NCBI RefSeq assembly: GCF_900116535.1
Contig: NZ_FPAU01000001.1
Location: forward strand, 917,218 to 981,217
DNA from: Kosakonia arachidis
GTDB taxonomy: Bacteria; Pseudomonadota; Gammaproteobacteria; Enterobacterales; Enterobacteriaceae
Direction of reading: 5' to 3'
DNA: 64,000 bases
This document shows, piece by piece, positions 18,711 to 20,389 of this stretch. The notes under the pieces are model-generated. The model did no database searches. It was not told the origin of the DNA and saw only the letters and a list, made by a program, of their open reading frames with translations. The stretch's first letter is position 1, and the number at the start of each line of letters is the position of its first letter. The position numbers were made by a program, and so were the translations under genes.

Positions 18711-18848
18711 AATTCCTCAACGTCATTCCGAAAGCGCCAAAGCCGGTGCGTAGGATGCGTCAGGCACGGTACAAAGGCTAGCGGAAAAAACTGAATGGCT
18801 GGTGGGAACATACGCTTACATCCATCCTTGAGCCCACTAAATAGCCCT

Positions 18849-19178
18849 CTATGAAAGTAGGTTAAGCTGAGTCTGCGTGGTCATAATATCGGCCAGGACG
18901 CCACCTGGCCTGGCCAGTTAATTCCGGCGATAAGAGTAAGGTTATACAGCGGCAGGAAAAGATGAATATCATCCCCGGAGCGCTCGCCGTTGACCGAATT
19001 CGATTTGGCAAGGTGTTTGTCAGCGCCCCGGGATCGTCGCAAATATTTTTCACCAGCCACGCTAGCGTGGCCAGGATATTCGTCGAAATTGTCGCTCGCC
19101 GCCTGTTTCTTCGCAACAAACCGGGCTTGTGTGCCTGCGGTATGGAAAGCTCGTCAAAGGCGGATTTCGCATGGCTCA
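18849..19178 (-). pseudogene. grxB: grxB remnant (5'-deleted, multiply frameshifted)
   Basis: Immediately after the mdtH stop codon, three minus-strand frames together rebuild the C-terminal half of glutaredoxin 2. The pieces are HAKSAFDELS, then NGERSGDDIHLF and LIAGINWPGQVASW in a second frame, LVKNICDDPGAL back in the first, and finally TTQTQLNLLS before a TAG. About the first 105 codons, including the thioredoxin-fold active site CPYC, are missing. The order yceB-grxB-mdtH is as in K-12, so this is a decayed native gene. Confidence 0.92.
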
Positions 19179-19180
19179 AA

Positions 19181-20389
19181 TCAGGCACCTGGTTCAAGCA
19201 TCTGCGGACGAATACGCTTCTGTCCGAATTGCCACAGCAGCGCCATTGAGGTCATCAAACCGATCAGGCCGAGCATCATCCACGGCAATTCAGGCTGATT
19301 GAAGGTTTTGCCGACATCAAACAACCATCCACCGCCGGCGTAACCAAGCGCGCCGCCAAATGCCAGCCCCAGGCGACTGAAACCCATATAGCTGCCGCGC
19401 GCGCGGGCATCAGCTAACTGGGCACTTAAGGTTTCTCGTGCAGGTTCTGCAATAATTGAGCCGATATAGAACATGCAGATAAGCGTAAGTAGTTGCTGCA
19501 ACGTCCCTACCATTCCGACCGGCAGCAGACTGAATGACATCACCAGCAGCCCGGCCATCAGACGATGTTCAAGACGAAAGCGTTTTTCGCTCCAGCGGGC
19601 GATAGGGTAGAGCAAGGTCAGCGACAAACAGGCTTCGATGGCGTACATCCACTTCACTGCTGACGGTGAACCGGCAATATCGTTGACCATGATCGGCAGC
19701 ATCAGCATCACCTGTACCGCCAGCATATAATAGCCGGTCAACGTCAGTACGTAGGTGACAAACCGTTTGTCGCGCAGCACACGTGTCAGCCCTTCGCGCA
19801 CAGGGGCTTTTACCGTAGAGAGTTTCCACGCCGGTAACAGCCAGGCGTTGAACGCGGCGCAGAGCACAAACATTAGCGCACCGGCGGCACACACCAGACG
19901 AAAGTCATATTGCAATAGCCAGCTACCGAGCAATGCGCCGACAACCGCGCCAGCGCTGTCCTGCATCATCAAGATAGAGAAAAAGCGACTGCGCTGGTTT
20001 GAGCGCACCAGTTTGACTACCAGCGCGGAGCGCGGTGGATCGAACAGCGTACCGCCCAACCCCGAAAGAATGCAGGAGAGCCACAGTAGCCAGGGTTCAT
20101 GTGCCATGCCCATGGCGATGAAACCGCCCGCGCGCATCAACATGCCGGTGACGATCAGCGGTTTTGCACCAAAACGGTCGGCAATTGCGCCGCCGAAAAT
20201 GCCCAAACCCTGTTGAATAAATTGTCGCAGGCCGAGTGCAATACCGACCATCAAAGCCGCCCAGCCGAGCTGATCAACAAAACGAATAGAAATGAGTGGG
20301 AAGACAACGAAAAAACCGAGTACCACTAGCATATTATCGACAAGCAGGAAATATTTACCCAGGCTCCTTGCCTGCGATATGCGCGACAT
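19181..20389 (-). CDS. mdtH: MFS multidrug transporter MdtH
   Basis: A 402-residue inner-membrane major facilitator with twelve predicted membrane segments and motif A-like [12 protein letters not shown] between segments 2 and 3. E. coli MdtH gives modest resistance to norfloxacin and enoxacin when overproduced. Length equals K-12. Its stop codon abuts the junction of the grxB deletion, so the deletion spared mdtH exactly. It is divergent from rimJ. Confidence 0.95.

Follow-up and report, generated by a model that had tools for sequence, protein, structure and literature searches.

A decaying glutaredoxin 2 gene in Kosakonia arachidis and the recurrent absence of grxB in Enterobacteriaceae

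Glutaredoxin 2 (Grx2), the product of grxB, has been assigned several roles. Passages in published work name GrxB, together with GrxA and GrxC, as a reductant of PAPS reductase (PMC7949104), and describe its use in ArsC-dependent arsenate reduction (PMC12821715, citing Shi et al. 1999). Grx2 is credited with up to 80% of total glutaredoxin activity (PMC5807413, citing a paper that by its title deals with human Grx2), and deletion of grxB from Cronobacter sakazakii is reported to lower both acid tolerance and biofilm formation (PMC5807413). Among titles and opening lines of abstracts – a scope that left subscription journals mostly outside – we found none on grxB loss or on the grxB leader. The closest counterparts of the locus described here are the intact grxB genes (glutaredoxin 2: TIGR02182, NF007702; PF04399) of sister Kosakonia such as strain SP1. 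The copy in K. arachidis – found in a 64,000-nucleotide stretch of contig NZ_FPAU01000001.1, hereafter the window – shares with them its position, its strand and codons 106–215, whereas the 215 intact codons, CPFC active site, promoter and ribosome site of the sister genes have all been lost.

The order on the minus strand of the window (from a genome of 5.14 Mb in 23 contigs) is mdtH (20389–19181), the grxB remnant (19168–18837) and, as right-hand neighbour, the lipoprotein gene yceB (18710–18150). Both neighbours are intact, as judged by their open frames and by identity to four relatives: MdtH, a multidrug efflux MFS transporter of 402 aa, is 96.5–97.3% identical, and YceB 96.8–97.3% identical, to the proteins of sister genomes G003, G008 and G010 and of Kosakonia oryziphila (97% for MdtH against K. 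oryziphila REICA_142 and strain SP1). The three sister genomes carry an uninterrupted mdtH–grxB–yceB series. What lies between the two genes in the window corresponds to codons 106–215 of grxB plus the stop, spread over three frames of the same strand. When an intact Kosakonia GrxB was compared by tblastn with the minus strand of 18800–19220, residues 113–197 matched at 19147–18893 (50.6% identity, E 6.6e-26), residues 199–215 at 18890–18840 (64.7%, E 0.002, with one internal stop), and residues 106–200 from 19170 (32.7%, E 1.3e-8), the last being a good match by eye over only its first dozen or so codons. The nucleotide local alignment scored 350, whereas none of 200 mononucleotide shuffles scored above 31.

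The remnant carries an in-frame stop and four frame-changing indels, a number that depends on the alignment. A functional GrxB has a full-length open frame of about 215 codons, which is broken here over three frames with an internal stop; it has an N-terminal thioredoxin fold with a CPxC active site, which went with codons 1–105; and it has the C-terminal helical domain PF04399, which survives in part (positions 29–113 of 130, 37.1 bits against a cut-off of 32.8 in a search of the whole genome). The 111-aa open reading frame that spans the remnant and the end of mdtH (18862–19197, minus strand) is a chance frame, with no NCBIfam match at E 0.001 and no Pfam match at E 0.1. An earlier note, made from the letters alone, had described a decayed grxB beside an intact mdtH, lacking roughly its first 105 codons and with them the active site; both points are borne out. 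By itself, the remnant is an ordinary pseudogene.

The edges of the deletion repay attention. Relative to G003, where a 68-nt stretch that includes the mdtH stop precedes grxB, 370 bp are missing from the window, and grxB resumes within codon 106. The earlier note placed the endpoint exactly after the mdtH stop. It does adjoin that stop (TGA, 19183–19181), but not to the nucleotide: the next 9 to 12 nt (19180–19169) align with the old mdtH–grxB spacer of intact loci, with one substitution, and by that alignment these 12 nt still contain the TTG of what, in relatives, is the predicted grxB −35. Their last three nucleotides, TGC (19171–19169), are also present in intact sisters just before the point at which the grxB match resumes, a microhomology that fits illegitimate recombination and is too short to stand as proof. 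A deletion between such short repeats would have taken codons 1–105 together with the ribosome site and the −10 of the predicted promoter. A breakpoint just outside the mdtH stop would need no special mechanism, because a deeper deletion would presumably harm mdtH: deletions here may halt before they reach mdtH or the yceB promoter, since going further would damage a gene that is kept. In the surveyed loci mdtH is intact by construction, these having been found through MdtH matches. On the other side, a block about 77 nt before yceB (18797–18777, minus strand, its edges drawn by eye) is perhaps part of the yceB promoter. With no chance control for any of the counts, its loose pattern is found 69–81 nt before yceB in 49 of 51 loci that lack grxB, at 77 nt in both loci with a remnant, and in 28 of 30 intact loci, at least one of these last matches lying elsewhere.

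Evidence on the mode of decay comes from the distribution of change over codon positions, which in the window remnant is even. Against the intact grxB of G003 there are 19, 20 and 17 differences at positions 1, 2 and 3 (111, 112 and 110 sites), against G008 18/23/20 and against SP1 18/24/19, with 82–83% nucleotide identity to the three sisters over codons 106–215. The same window–G003 pair differs by 16/4/71 in mdtH and 5/2/32 in yceB, and two intact grxB genes (G003 and G008) differ by 2/0/13 over codons 106–215. The bias that marks a gene under selection is thus absent: the remnant is decaying neutrally. Its first and second positions have changed (39/223, 17.5%) about as much as the third positions of mdtH (71/402, 17.7%). 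Inactivation would accordingly be old on the window branch, because nearly all of the change at positions 1 and 2 should fall there. Frameshifts, stop and even change alike are what drift of the remaining sequence after the deletion would produce.

How far the loss extends beyond this genome was asked at several scales. In the window's genome PF04399 matched at the remnant only (whole-genome profile search), so there is no second grxB. Within the genus, 14 of 15 genomes gave a match – 12 full-length genes and two remnants, in the window and in K. oryziphila – and one (G004) gave none. A set of 80 named loci in Enterobacteriaceae was made up of the best MdtH matches, and is thus tilted to relatives of Kosakonia and holds mdtH throughout by construction. 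In 28 of these loci grxB is intact in the mdtH–yceB interval, one (K. oryziphila) has a remnant and 51 have nothing. The 51 include Klebsiella pneumoniae, Raoultella, Enterobacter cloacae, K. oryzendophytica and 12 of 14 Citrobacter. As in the window, the same gene is gone from the same interval; unlike the window, no tblastn match to GrxB is left, and mdtH and yceB stand 108–180 bp apart, save at one locus with a gap of 18 bp and N. K. oryzendophytica (L049/L127), with a gap of 126 bp, represents a second, separate and clean absence within Kosakonia. Fifty of the 51 genomes were searched whole (the one left out, L118, is a second, partly masked Trabulsiella), and 49 of these, as drafts, held no PF04399 match anywhere. 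The exception is Leclercia UBA3338 (L115), which has no grxB between mdtH and yceB and a 215-codon PF04399 frame elsewhere (G447:C30:109201-109575, E 2.4e-29). Relocation as a general explanation was rejected, a copy being found elsewhere in only this one of the 50 tested genomes.

On a tree of mdtH and yceB with 83 rows the pattern of presence and absence takes no fewer than 13 changes or, with regain barred, 16 losses (counted as absent clades). The loss, which the earlier note had called unusual, is common in the family: the constancy of grxB in E. coli misleads. There, a grxB match covering 80% or more of the query is present in 5375 of 5426 genomes; an equal number match a query that includes mdtH, and the region itself may be missing from the remaining 51. 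In the GTDB family as a whole, matches occur in 164 of 391 genomes, both remnants counted in; we did not take this figure to show loss among free-living bacteria, many of the listed misses being reduced genomes (14 of the 20 listed, from 227, are of 2.0 Mb or less). Other genera were covered by 20 fetched loci. Nine of them have mdtH and yceB immediately on either side of grxB, with GrxB 57–84% identical, although one of the nine (L150) has a contig as long as that of L060 and is not independent of it. The remaining 11 have no mdtH or an incomplete one in the stretch, or have yceB at a greater distance or not at all. Presence of grxB looks like the old state, and we infer that the changes were losses. 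Not every absence need be a separate event. Escherichia whittamii and 'E. coli' E69 (L057 and L065) bear near-identical scars, each with a gap of 174 bp between mdtH and yceB, and the tree sets E. whittamii beside a strain that bears grxB and apart from E69. Because the scars are so alike despite this separation, the deleted allele may have spread by recombination, and some absences may be one allele that has moved.

The second remnant, in K. oryziphila REICA_142 (L045/L126), bears on the timing of inactivation. Like that of the window, its left deletion starts by the mdtH stop and it has replacements in common with the window; unlike the window, that deletion is longer (428 bp relative to G008, from the TTTG adjoining the stop to about codon 122–123), and grxB has also lost its 3′ end, to another deletion of about 124 bp. 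The two genomes are sisters on the mdtH and yceB tree (SH-aLRT 99). In 185 common columns their remnants share five identical derived bases that occur in none of six intact relatives, where about 0.7 would be expected by chance from the simple product of the two change rates. Four of the five change the amino acid: three fall on leucine or proline residues that never vary among the 30 intact GrxB, and the fourth on a position occupied by E in 22 of these and by D in 8. Because of these four shared replacements at conserved codons, grxB was probably inactivated before the two lineages split. That each lost the gene independently, after the split, is unlikely, though it would account for the fact that the remnants have no deletion endpoint, frameshift or indel in common. 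It would also suit the somewhat greater third-position change of the K. oryziphila remnant, which differs from G003, G008 and SP1 by 9/6/10, 6/5/11 and 7/7/13 (about 62 sites each); these less even counts fit a later or partial relaxation, or equally small numbers. Differing endpoints are no obstacle to inactivation before the split, since the longer deletion of K. oryziphila can have arisen atop a shorter one, which it would have enlarged.

Two further objections concern the window remnant itself, and a third the direction of change in the family. An open stretch of 85 codons still scores 38.5 bits against PF04399, a significant match, and the sequence is compatible with weak expression, so that one might suppose a surviving Grx2 C-terminal helical domain at work without its thioredoxin half. 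We consider this highly improbable: nothing is left of the grxB −10, ribosome site or start, the remnant is interrupted by frameshifts, change is spread evenly over its codon positions, and K. oryziphila has lost even more. An error of assembly or sequencing is scarcely credible, given that several lesions would have to fall in one gene flanked by two clean ones, and that the independent K. oryziphila assembly holds a related remnant with shared changes. The patchy distribution might alternatively record repeated gain of grxB by transfer, and the count of 13 changes on the tree gives no direction. Such gain is nonetheless very improbable in view of the shared gene order and the GrxB identity of 57–84% in the nine loci from other genera, the single promoter layout of all 30 intact loci, and the remnants in two Kosakonia, which show loss under way. 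We therefore hold, with a probability of about 0.93, that the locus is a dead grxB whose −10, ribosome site and codons 1–105 would have been lost by a short-repeat deletion, with neutral drift of the rest thereafter, and that this is one of many recurrent losses.

The earlier note asked what might replace Grx2, and no added glutaredoxin appears to do so. GrxA, GrxC, GrxD (of the Grx4 family) and NrdH are intact in the window's genome, each above its NCBIfam cut-off, and presumably suffice. PF00462 matches at four places in this genome and at three to six in the other 14 genomes of the genus. For 50 genomes drawn from the 80 named ones, comprising every keeper of grxB (28) and 22 of the other 52, the counts average 4.46 among keepers and 4.09 among the rest, although some hits in keepers may be the N-terminus of GrxB, as was seen once. 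A replacement glutaredoxin from this family was thus rejected, losers having counts no higher than keepers. A role for ArsC as the reason for keeping Grx2 was rejected as well: because every one of these 50 genomes has an ArsC (PF03960) match, whether it keeps grxB or not, arsenate does not account for the retention of Grx2. Taken with the distribution, these data make it likely that grxB is a hot spot of parallel loss, deleted from the mdtH–yceB interval about a dozen or more times within Enterobacteriaceae, the tested genomes having gained no further glutaredoxin, and that the window and K. oryziphila capture one such loss half-way.

If this is true, Grx2 would serve a conditionally needed, niche-dependent function and would not be part of the core. 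The half-decayed gene ties the many clean absences of related genera to a process, and it carries a warning that the glutaredoxin set of E. coli is not standard for the family. Relatives that naturally lack grxB are, moreover, material for asking what Grx2 does.

The intact loci offer a separate and testable regulatory idea, that of a promoter set within a hairpin in the grxB leader. In all 30 the gene has 215 codons, and in all 30 the region between mdtH and grxB contains TTGNNN and CATACT exactly 17 nt apart, CATACT ending 31–81 nt before the start codon; we predict these to be the −35 and −10 of a grxB promoter. In a hairpin of this leader the ribosome site GGAGGAG forms the right arm, and the left arm overlaps the predicted −10 (for example L046:4223-4280 and L128:2235-2292, in an alignment, A1, of 28 rows). 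A transcript from this promoter would start past the left arm and leave the ribosome site free, while read-through from mdtH would be predicted to bury it. Support for the hairpin from covariation is modest. In 28 of the 30 leaders (two Buttiauxella with longer leaders were set aside beforehand) the cells of a 12-pair helix hold standard pairs at a rate of 89.0%; shuffles, which related sequences can exceed without any structure, give 86.4%, and sliding the helix gives 47–63%. Three pairs have changed on both sides, in five cells, and a slide of +1 also gives three such pairs (three cells); the covariation term of RNAalifold is only −0.18, with one of nine pairs changed on both sides. Thirteen leaders folded singly gave z from −1.55 to −6.77. 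The active site of the proteins encoded at these loci (residues 9–12) is CPFC in 24 of the 30 and CPYC in six: two Escherichia, two Superficieibacter, Pseudescherichia vulneris and Enterobacter sp. kpr-6.
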